Of a DNA stretch of 45,707 bases, positions 35,035 through 44,946 are shown one piece after another. Every line of letters begins with the position of its first letter. The stretch's first letter is position 1. Source of the stretch: Asaia bogorensis (GTDB lineage: Bacteria; Pseudomonadota; Alphaproteobacteria; SHVZ01). The notes below the pieces were generated by a model. That model did not search any database. It was not told the origin of the DNA and worked only from the letters and a program-made list of their open reading frames with translations. The DNA lies in the NCBI GenBank assembly GCA_945897335.1, contig CAMDFP010000005.1, forward strand, positions 1-45,707, in the 5' to 3' direction. The position numbers were made by a program, and so were the translations under genes.

Positions 35035-35970
35035 ATGGCGAGCGTCAAGGAGACCCCGGCCGCGCGCGGCACGGATCGCGTGATCGGCGTCGACTGGGGC
35101 ACCTCGAGCTTCAGGGCCTATCTCATGGATGGCGATGGAGCCGTGCTCGATCGTCGCGAGGCCGCCGACGGCATCCTGGCGGTTCAGGATTTCGACGGCT
35201 GCTTCGAGCGCCATTGCGGCGCCTGGGCGGAGGCGCATCCGCAGGCGCCGATCCTGCTGGCCGGCATGATCGGCAGCCGTCAGGGCTGGGTCGAGGCGCC
35301 CTATTGCCCGTGCCCGGCGGGAGCGGCCGAGATCGCGGCAAGGTTGACGCCTCACGCCACCGCCCGGGGCCGCAAGGTCGCCTTCGTTCCGGGCCTTTCC
35401 TGGCAGTCGACCTCGGGCGCCGACGACGTCATGCGGGGCGAGGAAACGCAGATCCTCGGCGTCGCCGCATCGGGACGGCAGATCCTGGTGCTGCCGGGGA
35501 CGCACAGCAAGTGGGCGGAGGTCGTGGACGGCCGCGTCGTGCGCTTCTCCACCTTCATGACCGGCGAAGTGTTCGCGGCGATGTCCAAGCACACGATCCT
35601 CGGCCGGCTGATGACCGGGGAGGGCCACGACCCGAAGGCGTTTGCCGCCGGCATTGCTGCCTCGGGCGAGGCGGGCGGGTTGCTGCATCACCTGTTCCGG
35701 GTGCGGACGGCCGGGCTGTTCTCGAGATGGCCGGCGGAGTCGTTGTCGTCGCTGCTGTCGGGCCTGGTGATCGGTCACGAGATCAGGGCCGCCCAGGCGT
35801 TCTTCGCGGCCGAGCGTGTGCTGGTGGTCGGTGGTGCCGCCCTGGCGGAGCGCTATGCCGAAGCTCTGGCCACCCTCGGGCTCACGGCGGAGACCGCCCC
35901 GGCCGATGCGGCGGCCCGCGGCCTGGCGCTGCTCGCGCGTCAGATCACCTTGTCGGTCATGTCCTCGTAG
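35035..35970 (+). CDS. dgoK: 2-dehydro-3-deoxygalactonokinase (KDGal kinase family)
   Basis: Sugar-acid kinase of 311 residues in the ASKHA fold. GVDWGTSSFRAYL (residues 16-28) is the phosphate-1 motif diagnostic of DgoK; PILLAGMIGSRQGWVEAPY (77-95), GEETQILG and VLPGTHSKWAEV (near 155-165) are also family signatures, and VLVVGGAAL is the adenosine motif. AAGGAC precedes the ATG. It is divergent from RraA/FAH genes across 49 bp. The 3' end overlaps the convergent PAS gene by 31 bp. The partner aldolase DgoA is not in the window; the RraA-like protein may act instead. Confidence 0.92.
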   Translation: MASVKETPAARGTDRVIGVDWGTSSFRAYLMDGDGAVLDRREAADGILAVQDFDGCFERHCGAWAEAHPQAPILLAGMIGSRQGWVEAPYCPCPAGAAEIAARLTPHATARGRKVAFVPGLSWQSTSGADDVMRGEETQILGVAASGRQILVLPGTHSKWAEVVDGRVVRFSTFMTGEVFAAMSKHTILGRLMTGEGHDPKAFAAGIAASGEAGGLLHHLFRVRTAGLFSRWPAESLSSLLSGLVIGHEIRAAQAFFAAERVLVVGGAALAERYAEALATLGLTAETAPADAAARGLALLARQITLSVMSS

Positions 35971-36419
35971 AGGGCGGCGCCGAGGATGAAGTCGACCTTG
36001 CCGGCACCCTCGGTGACCGGCAGCAGCAGCCGCTCGGTCACCAGGAAGTTGAAATCGGGATTGAACATGGTGGCACCGCGATAATGGCGGACTTCGGCCT
36101 CCTCGCTGCAGATGACGTAGTCCCGGTAGGAGGCCTTCTCGCGGACGTCGGGATAGACCTCGTCCATGGTGCGGCCGATGACGTTCGGGCGCGACACGCT
36201 GGTGATCCCTGATCCGAGCAGCCGGAAGCGGAACCGGAGCGGCGGGCGCTCGACCGCGACCAGGAAGACATCGTGAAGCAGGGGCCCGATCTCGACCGGA
36301 TCGATATCGGACTTCCGCGGCAGACCCTCGGCCGGGCGTTTCGAGCGCCAATAGTCGTAGAGGCGCTGAAGCTTCGGATGCCACGCCGTGCGATCGATCT
36401 CGCCGGTCATGAGCGTCAT
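35940..36419 (-). CDS. Small PAS-domain protein (PAS_5 type), copy 1
   Basis: Stand-alone sensor domain of about 159 residues. The family pattern W-H-P-x-L-x-x-L-Y-x-Y-W near the start, R-x-D-I-D-P-x-E-I-x-P-L-L and RFRFRLLGSGI, then RLLLPV and FILGAALY, matches single-domain proteins abundant in Rhodospirillales. No kinase or cyclase follows, so the partner is unknown. Of several in-frame ATGs (36446, 36422, 36419, 36410), 36419 is best spaced from TAAGGG. It is 35 bp behind a related gene, and its last 31 bp overlap dgoK on the other strand. Confidence 0.85.
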   Translation of the reverse strand: MTLMTGEIDRTAWHPKLQRLYDYWRSKRPAEGLPRKSDIDPVEIGPLLHDVFLVAVERPPLRFRFRLLGSGITSVSRPNVIGRTMDEVYPDVREKASYRDYVICSEEAEVRHYRGATMFNPDFNFLVTERLLLPVTEGAGKVDFILGAALYEDMTDKVI

Positions 36420-36453
36420 CATGGCCCTTAGAGCCACGGCTCGCAACGCCGGC

Positions 36454-36918
36454 TCACAGCTCGTGCCCGTCGGAATCGAAGAAGACGGACAAGCCCAGGA
36501 TCATATCCACCCGCTTTCCGTCGGTCGCCAAGGGCAAGAGCAGGCGCTCGATCTGGACGTGTTCGCGGTCCCAGTCGAACACCGGCGTCCCCAGCCGCCG
36601 GCTGATGCGATGGTCGCGCACGCAGGCGGGATAGTCCGCATAGGGTTGCGCCACGAACAGGTTGGGGTGCGCCTCCTCCATCAGCATTCCGGTCATCTCG
36701 CGATTGCCGGCATAGACCAGCTTGGAGCCGACCAGCCGGTAGCGGAATCTGAGCGGCGCCTCGATTACGTCCAAGAGGTAGATGTTGGGCAGCAGCAGCG
36801 GGATCTCGGCCGGGTCGATATGGCTGCGCGACGGCAGCAGCCCGGTGCCCTCGGGCAGGCGCGTCCGCCAGTACGCGTAGAGCGCGGCGGATTTCGGATG
36901 CCAGCCGGAGGTATCCAT
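36454..36918 (-). CDS. Small PAS-domain protein (PAS_5 type), copy 2
   Basis: 154 residues, clearly related to the gene behind it: GWHPKSAALYAYWRTRLP, SHIDPAEIPLLLPNIYLLDV, RFRYRLVGSKL, IERLLLPLATDGKRVDMILG. The ATG at 36918 is chosen because family members begin a few residues before the W-H-P motif; the ATG at 36954 adds an unrelated stretch. Moderately diverged from copy 1, so this is an old duplication. It may sense a small ligand or act as an adaptor; no signalling output is attached. Confidence 0.86.
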   Translation of the reverse strand: MDTSGWHPKSAALYAYWRTRLPEGTGLLPSRSHIDPAEIPLLLPNIYLLDVIEAPLRFRYRLVGSKLVYAGNREMTGMLMEEAHPNLFVAQPYADYPACVRDHRISRRLGTPVFDWDREHVQIERLLLPLATDGKRVDMILGLSVFFDSDGHEL

Positions 36919-36968
36919 GCACCTACATGTCGATCCTACGACCGCCGGATGCAAGTCCCGGAAATTTT

Positions 36969-39485
36969 CTACCGAGACTCAGGGGGCGGGGCGACTCCGA
37001 AGGTTTCTGGCGGCAGGCCGCGCTGGGTGCGTTCCCACATGGCGAGATAGGCGCCTTCAACATGGCGGCGGTAGCGGTCGGTGTCGAAGAGCGGGTGGGT
37101 GACGCGATTGGCCGCCAGCCTGGCCCGGATCGCGGCGAGTGCCGCCCTGTCCCGCGCAAGCTCCAGCGCCCGGGCCTCATAGGCTGCCGGCGATCCGGCG
37201 ACCAGCTCCGGCAGCCCGACCGCGTGCAGCAGGCTGGCGGCGACACGGCCGACGAAGGTGGTTCCGAGGCAGGTCAGGACCGGGAGCCCCGCCCATAGCG
37301 CATCCGCGGCCGTGGTCTGGGCATTGAACGGAAGCGTGTCGAGGAACAGGTCGGCCTGGCGGTAGCGAGCCAGGTGCTCCTCCATCGACGGCAGCCGCGG
37401 CGCAAAGACCAGGCGGGCGGGATCGATGCCGGCCTCGGCCGCCTCGCGCCGCAGGTTCTCCGTCGCCGATGCCTGGATCTGCTGCAGCCACAGCACGCTG
37501 CCGTCGATCTGGCGGAGAAGCCGCATCCAGATGGCGAACGTCGCCGGGTTGATCTTGTAGGTGTTGTTGAAGCAGCAGAAGACGAACGCGGCTTCTGGAA
37601 GGCCGAGCTCGGCGCGCGACGGCGTCCGCTCGGCGATGCGGCGGGAGGAGTCGGTGGCGAGGAAGGTGTCGGGCAGATAGGCGATCTGTTCGCGATGGAA
37701 GCGGCGGTGCTCCTCGGGGATCGCGACCGGGTCGGCGATCAGGTAGTCGATGAAGGGGGCGTCGGTCGGGCAGAAGAAGTTGACGCTGACCGGCGCCGGC
37801 CGCCAGGCGAAGACGCCGAGCCGGTTGCCGTGCGTATGCCCCATCAGGTCGACGGCGATATCGACCTCCAGGCGGCGCACCAGCTCGGCGATGGAGCGGT
37901 CGCTCTCGTTGCGGACGTCGATGAAGCGGTCGAAGGCGCCTTCCAGGCGCGCCCGCATCGCGCTCGGCTCGGCCGGCCCGAAGGAGAGCGCGGTGACCTC
38001 GAAGCGCCGCCGGTCGTGGTGCTCGAAGAGGCCGGCGAGCAGCACCGAGATCGCGTGCTCGCGAAAGTCCGCCGACAGATACGCGACACTGATCCGCTCG
38101 TGCCCGTACCGCTCTCCGTTCCAGAGCGGCGCCGGCGGGGCCGGATAATTATCGCGGCAGAAGACCTCGCCGCAGACCGACTGGTCCTGCTCCGATCGGG
38201 TGACGGAGAAGAAGGCGAACGGCGTGCAGGCGCGCTGTCTCGCCCGCACCGCCGCCGTTACCCGGTCCGCCTGTCCCTCAAGATCGCGCCAGTCGCAGCA
38301 GTTCATCTGCGAATGCAGCAGGGAGCCCTCGATGTACGGCTCATCCGGCGCGATCTCCAGCAGGATCCTGAAATCCGCAATCGCCTCGCGGTGATGGCCG
38401 AGCGTCCGCAGCAGGTTGCCCCGGTTGCGGAGGGCCTCGACGTAACCGGGCCTGACAGCCAGGGCCCGGCCGTAGTTCGCTAACGCCCGCTCGGCCTGGC
38501 CAAGCTCCTTCAGGGCATTGCCCCGATTGTGCAGGGCCTCGGGATGGGATGGCGCCAGCGCGAGCACTCTGCCGCAAGTTGCGAGAGCCTCGGGCCAGCG
38601 TCTCAGCTCGTGGAGCGCGACGCTGCGGTTGCTCAGCCGCTCGACATGATCCGGAGTGTGCGCGAGGACCTGGTCGAAGCTCTTGAGAGCCTGGTCCGGC
38701 CGCTTGAGAAAAAGCAGGACGACGCCGCGGTTGTTCACGATGTCCGGGTGGCCGGGCACGAGTGCCAGCGCCCGATCGTAGCTTGAGAGCGCCTCTTCCA
38801 GGCGATTCAGCTCGCTCAGGACCTGTGCGCGGCGCCACAGCGTCTCGAAGTGACTGGCCTGGAGCGACATGGCTTTGCGGAAGTCGGCCAGTGACTCGGC
38901 CGGCCTCCCCAGGCTTTGCAGAACCTCGCCTCGGGCAACGATCGCATCGACATAGTCGAGTCGGATCGCACAGGCCCGCCCGAAACTCGCCAATGCCTCC
39001 TTCGGTCGTGCCAGCTGCTGCAAGGCTCTGCCGCGGTTGAAGAAGACGGTCGCCTCGTCAGGGCGGATCGACACCGCGATCTCGAAGTTCCGCCGTGCCT
39101 CGTCGGGGTGACCAAGGTCGAGATGCAGGCTGCCGCGGTTGTTGAGGGCATCGCCGGACCCGGGATCGATCGAAAGCGCCCGGTCGTAGCTGGCCAGGGC
39201 ATCGTTCGGACGGTCCAGGCTTCTCAGGCAGTTGCCGAGGTTGATGTGAGCGGGCGGAAACCCGGGATTGATCCTGAGCGCGCGCCCGATCAATCGCGCT
39301 GCGTCGAGGACGAGGCTTCGTTGCAGATGCGCGACGCCGAGGAAATGCAAGGCATCGAAGTGACCGGGCTCGGCGCTCAGCGCTTGGCGATAGGCCCCTT
39401 CGGCAGTGGCGATATCGCCGACCTGATGGGCCGCCATTCCTCGCCGCAGTGCGTCGGCCGGATCGATGAGTCCCGAGGTGTTCAT
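36969..39485 (-). CDS. TPR-repeat O-linked GlcNAc transferase-like glycosyltransferase, copy 1
   Basis: Protein of 838 residues: an array of about eleven tetratricopeptide repeats (residues about 10-400, with repeated A-L-x-N-R-G-x and A-L-A-x-Y/F-x-R-A motifs) and a C-terminal GT41 (SPINDLY/OGT) catalytic half from about 460. Seen in the catalytic half: HAISVLLAGLF, NNTYKINP with Lys644 (the position of the essential UDP-binding Lys of human OGT), DTLPFNAQTTAADALWAGLP and the C-terminal PLFDTDRYRRHVEGAYLAMW. Two usual features differ: the GYPGT-type loop is replaced by FFCPTDAPF near 570, and the His of the N-x-H-T-T motif is Gln723. It probably glycosylates proteins such as flagellin or surface proteins. 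Its ATG overlaps the stop of copy 2. Confidence 0.9.
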   Translation of the reverse strand: MNTSGLIDPADALRRGMAAHQVGDIATAEGAYRQALSAEPGHFDALHFLGVAHLQRSLVLDAARLIGRALRINPGFPPAHINLGNCLRSLDRPNDALASYDRALSIDPGSGDALNNRGSLHLDLGHPDEARRNFEIAVSIRPDEATVFFNRGRALQQLARPKEALASFGRACAIRLDYVDAIVARGEVLQSLGRPAESLADFRKAMSLQASHFETLWRRAQVLSELNRLEEALSSYDRALALVPGHPDIVNNRGVVLLFLKRPDQALKSFDQVLAHTPDHVERLSNRSVALHELRRWPEALATCGRVLALAPSHPEALHNRGNALKELGQAERALANYGRALAVRPGYVEALRNRGNLLRTLGHHREAIADFRILLEIAPDEPYIEGSLLHSQMNCCDWRDLEGQADRVTAAVRARQRACTPFAFFSVTRSEQDQSVCGEVFCRDNYPAPPAPLWNGERYGHERISVAYLSADFREHAISVLLAGLFEHHDRRRFEVTALSFGPAEPSAMRARLEGAFDRFIDVRNESDRSIAELVRRLEVDIAVDLMGHTHGNRLGVFAWRPAPVSVNFFCPTDAPFIDYLIADPVAIPEEHRRFHREQIAYLPDTFLATDSSRRIAERTPSRAELGLPEAAFVFCCFNNTYKINPATFAIWMRLLRQIDGSVLWLQQIQASATENLRREAAEAGIDPARLVFAPRLPSMEEHLARYRQADLFLDTLPFNAQTTAADALWAGLPVLTCLGTTFVGRVAASLLHAVGLPELVAGSPAAYEARALELARDRAALAAIRARLAANRVTHPLFDTDRYRRHVEGAYLAMWERTQRGLPPETFGVAPPPESR

Positions 39486-41908
39486 GGCTGCGTCGATACC
39501 ATGAAGGTTTCTGGCGGGAGGGCGCGCTGGGCGCGTTCCCACATGGTGAGATAGGCGCCTTCGACGTGGCGGCGGTAACGGTCGGTGTCGAAGAGCGGGT
39601 GGGTGACGCGATTGGCCGCCAGCCTGGCCCGGATCGCGGCGAGTGCCGCCCTGTCCCGCGCAAGCTCCAGCGCCCGGGCCTCATAGGCTGCCGGCGATCC
39701 GGCGACCAGGTCGGGCAACCCGACCGCCTGCAGCAGGCTGGCGGCGACGCGGCCGACGAAGGTGGTGCCAAGGCAGGTCAGTACCGGGAGCCCGGCCCAC
39801 AGCGCATCCGCGGCCGTGGTCTGGGCATTGAAGGGAAGGGTGTCGAGGAACAGGTCGGCCTGGCGGTAGCGCGCCAGGTGGTCCTCCATCGACGGCAGCC
39901 GGGGCGCGAAGACCAGGCGGGCGGGATCGATTCCGGCCTCGGCCGCCTCGCGCCGGAGGTTCTCGGTCGCGGACGCCTGGATCTGCTGCAGCCACAGAAC
40001 ACTGCCGTCGATCCGGCGGAGAAGTCGCATCCAGACGGCGAACATCGCCGGGTTGAGCTTGTAGGTGTTGTTGAAGCAGCAGAAGACGAACGCCGCCTCC
40101 GGAAGGCCGAGCTCGGTCCGCGACGGCGTCCGCGCGGCGATGCGGCGGGAGGAATCGGTGGCGAGGAAGGTGTCGGGCAGATAGGCGATCTGTTCGCGAT
40201 GGAAGCGGCGGTGCTCCTCGGGGATCGCGACCGGGTCGGCGATCAGGTAGTCGATGAAGGGCGCGTCGGTCGGGCAGAAGAAGTTGACGCTGACCGGCGC
40301 CGGCCGCCAGGCGAAGACGCCGAGCCGGTTGCCGTGCGTGTGACCCATCAGGTCGACGGCGATGTCGATCTCCAGGCCGCGCACCAGCTCGGCGATCGAG
40401 CGGTCGCTCTCGTTGCGGACGTCGATGAAGCGCTCGAAGGCGCCTTCCAGGCGTGTCCGCATCGCGCTCGGCTCGGCCGGACCGAAGGAGAGCGCGGTGA
40501 TCTCGAAACGCCGCCGGTCGTGGCGCTCGAAGAGGCCGGCGAGCAGCACCGAGATCGCGTGCTCGCGAAAATCCGACGACAGATACGCCACCCGGATCCG
40601 CTCATGCCCGTACCGCTCTCCCGCCCAGAGCGGCGCGGGCGGGGACGGATAGTTGTCCTGGCAGAAGACCTCGCCGCAGACCGACTGCTCCTGCTCCGAT
40701 CCGGTGACCGAGAAGAAGGCGAACGGCGTGCAGGCACGTCGCCTTACCCGCACCGCCGAAGATACCCGTTCCGCCTGCTCCTCCACATCGCTCCACTCGC
40801 AGCAGTTCATCTGCGCATGCAGCAGATAGCCCGCGGCGTAAGGCCAGGCCGGATCGGTCCGGACGAGAGCGCGAAAATCTGCGATCGCGTCTTCGTAGCG
40901 GCCCATCAGTCTCAGTGTGTTGCCATGATTGGCCCGGGCGTCGGCATAGAGAGGTCGGATCGTCAGAGCCCGGGCATAGCTCGTCAGCGCGGCTGCCGTC
41001 TCGCCTTGGTCCTTCAGCACGTTTCCGTGGTTGTTGAAGGCTTCGACATGTGCGGGGTCGAGCGCGAGTGCCTGGCGGCAGCTGGCGAGCGCTTCGCGCC
41101 ACATCCTGAGGGCGTGGAGGGCCGCGCCGCGGTTGCCGAGCGCGTCCGGCTGGAGGGGCGCTGTCTGGAGCATCCGCTCGAAGCTGGCGAGCGCGTCTCC
41201 CGGGCGCTTGAGGCCGAGGAGAACGACGCCGAGATTGTTCAGCACGTCGGCGTGGTCGGGGTCGATCCCGAGCGCCCGCTCGAAGCTGTCCAGCGCCTCC
41301 GGCAGGCGATCGAGTTCCTTGAGCGTGTTCCCGCGATGCCAGAGCGCCTGGACGTCGTCAGGCGCGATTGCAAGTATCCGGCTGTCGCAGACCAAGGCCT
41401 CGATCGGGCGCCCCAGCCCCGTCAGCGCGTTGGCCCGATTGCGGAAGACGGCGGCAGCGGCGGGCAGGATCGCGAGGACCTTCCGGTAGCTCGCCAAGGC
41501 ATCGCCGAAGCGCCCGAGATCCTGCAGCACGTTCCCGCGATTGTTCAGGGCGTCGATGAAGTCCGGCTGGAGGGAGAGCGCCCGGTCGTAGCTGGCGAGC
41601 GCGTCGCGCGGCCGGTTCATGGCCCGCTGGCAATTGCCGAGATTCGATTGCGCGGTCGCATGCCGCGGGTCGATGCCGAGCGCGTCCCCGATCAATTGCG
41701 CTGCCTTCGGGAGTTCGCCTCGCTGCAGATGCACGACGCCGAGCAGGTGGAGGGCATCGGGGTGGCCCGGCTCGAGGACCAATGTGCGATGGTAGCAGGC
41801 TGCGGCGGCGGCGATGTCTCCGGCCTGATGGCGAGCCAAACCCTGCCGCATCATCTCGGCAGCGGACAGTCCTTCATGCCCGAGTGGCCCGCGGGGAGAG
41901 AGGGTCAT
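39482..41908 (-). CDS. TPR-repeat O-linked GlcNAc transferase-like glycosyltransferase, copy 2
   Basis: 808 residues with the same plan as copy 1: about ten TPR units (to about residue 385) then the GT41 half with Lys617 (NNTYKLNP) and Gln696 (NAQTT in place of NAHTT). From about residue 430 to the end it differs from copy 1 at only about 20 of 390 positions by eye, and the DNA is almost the same (40630-39495 against 38130-36990), while the TPR halves are much more different. The start at 41908 lacks a strong ribosome site, and an internal Met at 41854 is possible; the frame upstream to 42502 is a shadow of the divergent SDR. Coupled to copy 1 by a 4-bp overlap. TPR differences suggest different protein targets for the same chemistry. 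Confidence 0.9.
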   Translation of the reverse strand: MTLSPRGPLGHEGLSAAEMMRQGLARHQAGDIAAAAACYHRTLVLEPGHPDALHLLGVVHLQRGELPKAAQLIGDALGIDPRHATAQSNLGNCQRAMNRPRDALASYDRALSLQPDFIDALNNRGNVLQDLGRFGDALASYRKVLAILPAAAAVFRNRANALTGLGRPIEALVCDSRILAIAPDDVQALWHRGNTLKELDRLPEALDSFERALGIDPDHADVLNNLGVVLLGLKRPGDALASFERMLQTAPLQPDALGNRGAALHALRMWREALASCRQALALDPAHVEAFNNHGNVLKDQGETAAALTSYARALTIRPLYADARANHGNTLRLMGRYEDAIADFRALVRTDPAWPYAAGYLLHAQMNCCEWSDVEEQAERVSSAVRVRRRACTPFAFFSVTGSEQEQSVCGEVFCQDNYPSPPAPLWAGERYGHERIRVAYLSSDFREHAISVLLAGLFERHDRRRFEITALSFGPAEPSAMRTRLEGAFERFIDVRNESDRSIAELVRGLEIDIAVDLMGHTHGNRLGVFAWRPAPVSVNFFCPTDAPFIDYLIADPVAIPEEHRRFHREQIAYLPDTFLATDSSRRIAARTPSRTELGLPEAAFVFCCFNNTYKLNPAMFAVWMRLLRRIDGSVLWLQQIQASATENLRREAAEAGIDPARLVFAPRLPSMEDHLARYRQADLFLDTLPFNAQTTAADALWAGLPVLTCLGTTFVGRVAASLLQAVGLPDLVAGSPAAYEARALELARDRAALAAIRARLAANRVTHPLFDTDRYRRHVEGAYLTMWERAQRALPPETFMVSTQP

Positions 41909-43805: not shown

Positions 43806-44471
43806 ATGCGCGCCATGCTTACCTTTCTGCACACGGCCGAATCCAATGTCACCGCCGTCGGCGCCCTCATGTCCGAGCTGGCGCCGGAGATTCCCACCCG
43901 TCACCACCTTGCGCCCGATCTCCTGGCCGAGGCGGTGAAGGCCGCGAAGGTCACGGACGCCGTCGCCGCCGGCGTGCGCGAACGCCTTGCCGATGCGGCG
44001 GCCGGAGCCGCCGTCATCGTCTGCACCTGCTCGACCATCGGCGCGGTCGCCGAAGCCGCGAACGGCACCTTGCCCGTACCGGTGCAGCGCATCGACCGGG
44101 CGATGGCGGAGGCGGCCGTCGCCAAGGGATCGCGCATCCTCATCGCCGCCTGCGTCGCCTCGACCGTCGGTCCGACCTCGGACCTCGTCGCCAAGGTGGC
44201 GCGTGAGGCCGGCCGCGATGTGGCGCTCCGCGTCGTGCTGATCGCCGATGCCTGGCCGAAATTCATGGCCGGCGACGTCCAGGGCTATCAGGCGGCGATC
44301 GTCGAGCGTCTCGTTGCCGAGAAGGGCGATGCGGACGTCGTCGTCCTCGCCCAGGCATCGATGGCCGGTGCCGCGCCCGAGGCCGAGCGTCGTCTCGGTC
44401 TTCCGGTGCTGACCAGCCCCCGGCTCGGCGTCACCGCCGCCATTGCCGCCTGGCGCCGGGCGCGGGCCTGA
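43806..44471 (+). CDS. Asp/Glu/hydantoin racemase-superfamily protein
   Basis: 221 residues. MLTFLHTAESNV starts the first strand; VIVCTCSTIGAVAE near residue 75 holds the first catalytic Cys of the Asp/Glu racemase fold, and IAACVASTVGPTSDLV near 115 gives the second Cys; LAQASMAGAA and TSPRLGVTAAIAAW close the fold. Both Cys are present but embedded in less common sequence, so racemase activity is plausible and the substrate unknown. An alternative ATG at 43815 has a better spaced AGGA. Located 18 bp after the FemAB-like gene. Confidence 0.78.
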   Translation: MRAMLTFLHTAESNVTAVGALMSELAPEIPTRHHLAPDLLAEAVKAAKVTDAVAAGVRERLADAAAGAAVIVCTCSTIGAVAEAANGTLPVPVQRIDRAMAEAAVAKGSRILIAACVASTVGPTSDLVAKVAREAGRDVALRVVLIADAWPKFMAGDVQGYQAAIVERLVAEKGDADVVVLAQASMAGAAPEAERRLGLPVLTSPRLGVTAAIAAWRRARA

Positions 44472-44478
44472 TCCGCCG

Positions 44479-44946
44479 ATGCCGATCATCCAATATGGTG
44501 CGATGCAGCCGCGGTTGCGCGAGCTCTACGCCTTCTGGGACGAACGGCGCCGGCGGTCCGACGGCAAGCTTCCCTCGATCCTCCGGGTCCATGCCGAAAG
44601 CCTGACGCCGTGGCGCAACAACCTGGTGATCATGACGGTGCGGCGCGAGGGCGAGTTCGTCTATCGCTACTATCCCAAGAGCTTCGTCGATCAGTTCGGC
44701 GTCGACATGTCGGGCAAGCAGACGACCGAGCTGCCCGAAGCCCAGCGGGCTTTGCTCGAGCATGAGTATGACTATGTGCGTCAGAAGAAGCGGCCGACCT
44801 GGCGCGTCTACACCGGCGAGTTCGACAACGAGATCGTCACCTGGGAGCGGCTGATCCTGCCCTTCGCCACCGACGGCGAGGCGATCGATACGCTGATGAT
44901 CGGCGTCTACGAGGCCAAGAACGCCGGGCTGTTCGAGATCGCCTGA
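44479..44946 (+). CDS. Small PAS-domain protein (PAS_5 type), copy 3
   Basis: 155 residues, in the same family as the two PAS genes at 35940-36918 but more distant: MQPRLRELYAFWDERRRRSDGKLPS at the front (over about 25 residues it matches the L-Y-x-F-W pattern), then VYRYYPKSFVDQFGVDMSGK, YDYVRQKKRP and ERLILPFATDGEAIDTLMIG, which aligns with the RLLLPLATDG block of copy 2. No output domain. Seven bp after the racemase-like gene, last of the plus-strand run, followed by a hairpin. Confidence 0.82.
   Translation: MPIIQYGAMQPRLRELYAFWDERRRRSDGKLPSILRVHAESLTPWRNNLVIMTVRREGEFVYRYYPKSFVDQFGVDMSGKQTTELPEAQRALLEHEYDYVRQKKRPTWRVYTGEFDNEIVTWERLILPFATDGEAIDTLMIGVYEAKNAGLFEIA

Follow-up and report, generated by a model that had tools for sequence, protein, structure and literature searches.

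How did two neighbouring TPR-GT41 genes come to have nearly identical catalytic halves and strongly different TPR arrays? The pair, here called A and B, lies in the window, the whole stretch of 45,707 nucleotides that was analyzed (contig C5 of genome G000), and an earlier note made from the DNA had proposed gene conversion or recent replacement of the catalytic half. The coordinates it gave for the pair, and the 4-bp overlap, proved correct on ORF calling (Table 1), and from the shared ATGA the two genes are probably co-translated. Both proteins far exceeded the 25-bit cut-off of PF13844 and have the GT41 layout of an N-terminal TPR array followed by a C-terminal GT-B fold, as indicated by a repeat scan and by comparison with solved structures of an AlphaFold model of B, generated from an input alignment of 50 sequences taken from the window and the loci described below. 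No OGT model of NCBIfam was listed for either protein at E 0.001. Three small PAS_5 proteins flank the pair (35940-36446 and 36454-36954 on the minus strand, 44443-44946 on the plus strand), two of their genes following B in immediate succession on the minus strand.

Table 1. Positions in the window of genes A and B, their domains and the sites discussed in the text.
Feature	Position	Strand	Basis
Gene A, upstream TPR-GT41 protein, 808 aa	39482-41908	-	ORF and translation; PF13844 (237.8 bits); TPR families
A, ten TPRs in an unbroken 34-residue register, residues 16-355	40844-41863	-	repeat scan
A, residues 362-808, connector followed by the GT41 catalytic half	39485-40825	-	
Gene B, downstream TPR-GT41 protein, 838 aa	36969-39485	-	ORF; PF13844 (240.5 bits); AlphaFold model, mean pLDDT 95.2
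B, eleven TPRs, residues 9-382; repeat B6 has no partner in A	38340-39461	-	repeat scan
B, residues 389-838, connector followed by the GT41 catalytic half	36972-38321	-	
4-bp ATGA shared by the A stop codon and the B start codon	39482-39485	-	sequence
Estimated synonymous breakpoint, A residue 356, just past the last TPR	40841-40843	-	synonymous-rate scan
CPT replacing the GYPGTxGA loop, in B	37764-37772 (A: 40268-40276)	-	111-domain catalytic alignment; HMMER alignments to solved OGTs
Gln replacing the His of the HTT motif, in B	37317-37319 (A: 39821-39823)	-	111-domain catalytic alignment

When the true starts were used, the TPR halves of A and B shared 51% amino acid identity over 354 aligned residues, bearing out the strong difference described earlier, and the catalytic halves shared 91% over 447 residues without a gap, 39 of which differ. 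Near-identity of the last 390 or so residues was likewise upheld, although the count of about 20 differences was too low: 26 aligned positions differ and a further three positions of B have no partner in A. Long identical stretches of DNA were also observed, the longest being 131, 107 and 77 bp. The earlier note had called for a window-wise comparison of synonymous change, taking uniform divergence as the outcome that would speak against its reading, and divergence was not uniform: dS between A and B was 0.97 (95% interval 0.76-1.25) in the TPR halves and 0.19 (0.14-0.25) in the catalytic halves, where 61 codons carry a synonymous change. A two-rate scan placed a single change in synonymous rate at A residue 356, one residue past the last TPR, with a log-likelihood ratio of 49.7; none of 2000 codon permutations reached this value (maximum 11.6), and the contrast is therefore not due to chance. 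No significant second breakpoint was detected within the catalytic half (permutation p 0.42) or inside the TPR half, and multiple conversion tracts inside the catalytic half were rejected on this ground, the longest run free of synonymous change having p 0.07. These data confirm that the low synonymous divergence restricted to one domain of A and B is real and well bounded.

The contrast also stands out among relatives. In a regression of catalytic on TPR identity over the 820 pairs formed by 41 subfamily members, A and B exceeded the fitted catalytic identity by the widest margin (0.91 observed against 0.57 predicted, z 8.6), and the second-largest residual (z 6.9) came from another tandem pair, at locus L072 in a Xanthobacteraceae MAG. 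Within the genome itself, where 253 pairs from 23 of about 46 GT41 ORFs were compared, the pair with the next highest catalytic identity reached 0.65.

The nearest relative outside the pair, C, is a single gene in a genus mate (G001, L051:7360-9897). Synonymous distances from A to C were 1.15 in the TPR half and 1.04 in the catalytic half, and those from B to C were 1.37 and 0.90, respectively; since both halves lie near a dS of 1 against C and only the comparison of A with B is low, synonymous sites of the catalytic half are not constrained. This bears directly on a simple duplication followed by relaxed or fast evolution of the TPRs with no recombination. TPR halves do evolve faster than catalytic halves in most subfamily pairs, but such a history leaves unexplained a fivefold difference at synonymous sites with non-overlapping intervals, the lack of any comparable contrast against C, and a breakpoint likelihood ratio far above the permutation maximum. 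Short of a constraint peculiar to the catalytic synonymous sites of A and B, of which the comparison with C shows no trace, uniform divergence with relaxed TPRs is ruled out on dS, and we regard a history of this kind as scarcely credible.

Trees of the two halves were compared next to these distances. In the catalytic tree A and B grouped with 100/100 support and a grouping of A with C was rejected (AU p 0.0018), in agreement with the expectation that the GT41 parts cluster by genome. The companion expectation, that TPR parts cluster by copy, is addressed by C as the one relative, because an orthologous A/B pair was absent from the other five of the six genus genomes compared; in this TPR tree C fell beside A (97/56) and a grouping of A with B was not rejected (AU p 0.387). 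Nor was sisterhood of the TPR halves of the L072 pair (AU p 0.42). The evidence for conversion in the window is synonymous distance and not a supported conflict of trees. In a TPR tree of 41 sequences, the trees of this size being built after three of 44 chosen sequences were dropped for short TPRs, the arrays of A, B and C formed one clade (100/99). From a catalytic tree of 111 sequences, one short domain and 18 loci were omitted, of which 10 were Bradyrhizobium near-copies, 6 were distant and 2 were partial. Nine of the ten repeats of A matched best their in-register repeat of B, with B6 as the extra repeat, and this collinearity together with the single TPR clade argues that neither TPR arm came from an unrelated gene, a source which is accordingly disfavoured. 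At A/B-like loci of genus mates strong matches were confined to the GT41 genes, the matches of other window genes being scattered and weaker.

A scan of genome contigs with the catalytic half of B gave at least 77 loci, and the 111 aligned catalytic domains included 23 loci with two or more, counting the window (W) and the genus loci. Significant tracts of low pS, called with capped pS values and with at least 120 codons demanded outside the tract, were present in 14 of 41 within-array pairs as against 6 of 250 between-genome pairs for arrays among the matches listed, the mean catalytic identity of the two sets being 0.65 and 0.68. The tract-bearing within-array pairs came from seven loci (W, L072, L112, L091, L094, L140 and L079) and all 14 tracts lay in the catalytic half, whereas those of the six control pairs were scattered; as arrays were found by their likeness to B and pairs from one locus are not independent, these counts describe these arrays only. 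A second set consisted of 20 stretches, mostly picked for closely spaced GT41 genes, and six stretches of the window's own genome. Of its 88 same-locus pairs, the 32 similar enough for testing yielded four with a qualifying tract, one of them (L182) strong, indicating that conversion is sporadic. Locus L182 holds a tandem GT41 pair (L182:1117-6008) in G045, a genome of 2 contigs that is 100% complete. In this pair most TPR windows are 28-50% alike, and an unbroken run of 545 identical bases covers much of the C-terminal lobe, a pattern which, judged from the DNA, would reflect very recent conversion. No strong tract was found in the other large GT41 clusters of the window genus compared in the second set.

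Several further features of such arrays were observed. Neighbouring genes could overlap by a 4-bp ATGA or GTGA at 9 of 25 array junctions, and at seven loci (L136, L140, L112, L094, L101, L127 and L124) several TPR-GT41 modules are fused in one ORF, in Methylococcales, Chlorobiaceae, Hyphomicrobiales and other lineages; L136 has three catalytic domains in an open frame of at least 3948 residues that reaches the end of the locus. The first residue of the HTT motif is His in some members and Gly in others in 8 of 23 arrays (L136, L112, L094, L073, L071, L078, L091 and L142). Tracts common to the Gly member and the two His members of L112 start at catalytic position 344-345, just past the motif at 336-338. 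The split between His and Gly may mark a difference kept between members. Two genes from different genomes, L087 and L093, have low pS in the TPRs and the first 82 catalytic residues and high pS beyond, possibly because the C-terminal part of the catalytic half was replaced in one of them. GT41 genes are numerous in this group, with about 46 in the 5 Mb of G000, 41-50 matches in each of five genus mates and 47 in one family mate; a first look gave 94 candidates in G000, 65 in G002 and 55 in the next, the most among the genomes listed for a class sample of 240 genomes. Many of the GT41 genes of G000 are clustered, for example on contigs C8 and C124.

An assembly artefact, either collapse of paralogues or a misjoin, has in its favour a fragmented assembly (5.0 Mb in 442 contigs) and the identical runs of up to 131 bp. 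However, the 39 residue differences and 61 synonymously changed codons show that the halves are two separate copies rather than one collapsed copy, the junction near residue 356 falls outside all ten of the longest identical runs, and a like pattern occurs at L182 in a genome of two contigs. We therefore consider an artefact very unlikely.

A more serious competitor is a recent tandem duplication of the whole gene followed by replacement of the TPR half of one copy with a TPR half that is homologous but diverged, taken from a related strain or from a third copy of this lineage that has since been lost. The same dS contrast is predicted, the data fit movement of either half, and C shows that diverged members of the lineage exist within the genus. 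Such a history nevertheless requires two events, duplication and import, and no gene among those compared comes near A or B in its TPR half, the best others being about 40-48% identical. At L182, moreover, the young part is limited to the C-terminal lobe, with old divergence in the TPRs and the N-terminal lobe alike, an age pattern that fits conversion. On balance we judge TPR replacement unlikely. Gene conversion, needing one event rather than two and with no TPR donor having been found for the alternative, is favoured: of what the earlier note had put forward, non-uniform synonymous divergence and clustering of the catalytic parts by genome both stood, and we consider it likely that conversion overwrote the connector and catalytic half in one gene with those of its neighbour. 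A and B would then be tandem paralogues of one TPR-GT41 gene, arising by a whole-gene duplication about as old as the split from C, an age suggested by TPR dS and by the collinearity of the individual repeats. Homologous recombination between the adjacent genes, whether as gene conversion or as a crossover between alleles with the same outcome, would later have transferred the connector and catalytic half and halted at the end of the TPR array, after which about 39 residues of new divergence would have accumulated in the catalytic halves. The outcome would be one donor chemistry with a shared unusual sugar pocket, joined to two different TPR superhelices.

The pocket was compared across the 111 catalytic domains, with residue equivalences taken from HMMER alignments and published papers. 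Two OGT hallmarks are missing from A and B, namely the GYPGTxGA loop that follows the position of L653 and the His that opens the HTT motif. Three residues are absent from the loop, which reads CPT, in A, B and C alone (3/111), and these are also the only domains in which HTT is QTT, the position being His in 89/111. The L653 equivalent is Phe in all three (4/111 overall), as is the gatekeeper at the position of human C917 (16/111). L653 mutants of sOGT, L653F included, are reported to have lowered activity (PMC3660302), and donor size has been proposed to depend on one gatekeeper residue, which is Phe in the UDP-glucose enzyme HMW1C (PMC9715652). By contrast with these changes, Lys is retained at the position of hOGT K842 and SPY K665 in 111/111 domains, A, B and C among them, and His at the H558 position in 107/111; a K665 mutant of SPY is described as inactive (PMC9715652). 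Taken together, the CPT loop, QTT and the two Phe residues, with the K842 and H558 positions kept, suggest that A, B and C may be active with a donor other than UDP-GlcNAc.

Comparison with known systems places the pair within the OGT fold. The best solved relative of the B model is XcOGT (Xanthomonas campestris XCC0866, PDB 2JLB/2XGO; Z 50.0 over 533 residues, 35% identity), which shares the TPR, connector and GT-B layout and the Lys and His at the K842- and H558-equivalent positions. It differs in having NWLAYPGTSGA and YNAHTT in place of NFFCPT and FNAQTT, and its TPR part is shorter, the B model aligning from residue 279. Human OGT (PDB 3PE3 and others) has the same fold (Z approximately 41, 30% identity), with a stretch between its two lobes that is unmatched in B. 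Unlike the human enzyme, A and B have Phe at the L653 equivalent, lack the G, Y and P that follow, and carry Phe for C917 and QTT for HTT. In common with it, Asn occupies TPR position 6 in 7 of 10 repeats of A and 7 of 11 of B, which we take to be the Asn ladder of OGT. Arabidopsis SPINDLY, a GT41 O-fucosyltransferase (Z up to 39.8, 24% identity), is likewise a TPR-GT41 protein with a bulky aromatic gatekeeper (Y744; PMC9715652). It differs from A and B, in which the gatekeeper is Phe and the loop is shortened. The GT41 UDP-glucose transferases HMW1C/NGT have the same fold at only 14-15% identity (Z 29-30) and are not known to carry a long TPR array. A gatekeeper Phe is common to HMW1C and the pair (F517 in ApHMW1C; PMC9715652).

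The earlier note described the diverging TPR parts as target-selecting, a reading that the pattern of change does not specifically support. At positions presumed to form the helix-A face, differences between A and B were fewer (a mean of 4.5 of 10 repeats) than elsewhere (5.75), no focus of divergence on the inner face of the TPRs being seen, and dN/dS between the TPR halves was 0.42, not above 1. Ordinary drift is thus enough to explain the arms. Among 79 stretches compared, the only conserved neighbours that might name a client were a cluster of pilin-like proteins, in 6 stretches, and one of TPR proteins, in 14, and none lay near A and B. A pilin-like gene (GFTLIELMIVVAI) lies in the GT41 stretch of L079, L084, L087, L092, L128 and L136, and its product is a possible client. 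The likeness to Caulobacter FlmG is one of domain roles, a TPR domain for the client and a GT domain for the chemistry: flagellins are reported to be bound by the N-terminal TPR domain and not by the GT domain (PMC7591256). FlmG differs from A and B in being a single gene with pseudaminic acid as donor. By analogy with FlmG, the TPR arms of A and B would each bring their own cytoplasmic proteins, as clients, to a common chemistry, and the ATGA coupling would keep the doses of the two proteins similar.

A wider picture, which we put forward tentatively and consider doubtful as a whole, is that tandem and fused TPR-GT41 arrays form a recombining system of one sugar head and many target arms, in which repeated conversion would keep the donor lobe uniform within an array while TPR arms diverge, with ATGA stitching and, in some lineages, fusion, the pocket of A, B and C having been rebuilt for a donor other than UDP-GlcNAc. 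UGT1-type loci, where variable acceptor halves are joined to one shared donor half, have the same design logic, achieved there by alternative first exons and here, if this is right, by recombination between bacterial tandem genes. Gene conversion itself is a familiar process; what is apparently new, to us at least, is that GT41 arrays use it repeatedly, and so is the pocket shared by A, B and C. A title and abstract search of open-licence literature found no publication on domain-restricted gene conversion in bacterial GT41 genes. The finding means that the catalytic halves of bacterial OGT paralogues recombine separately from the TPRs, and consequently that whole-gene trees of the GT41 family can mislead. 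The CPT/QTT/Phe pocket is a natural variant for probing donor choice in GT41. For the question of how OGT-type enzymes select their clients, A and B, which in nature combine a single chemistry with two different arms, are ready for a comparison of clients.
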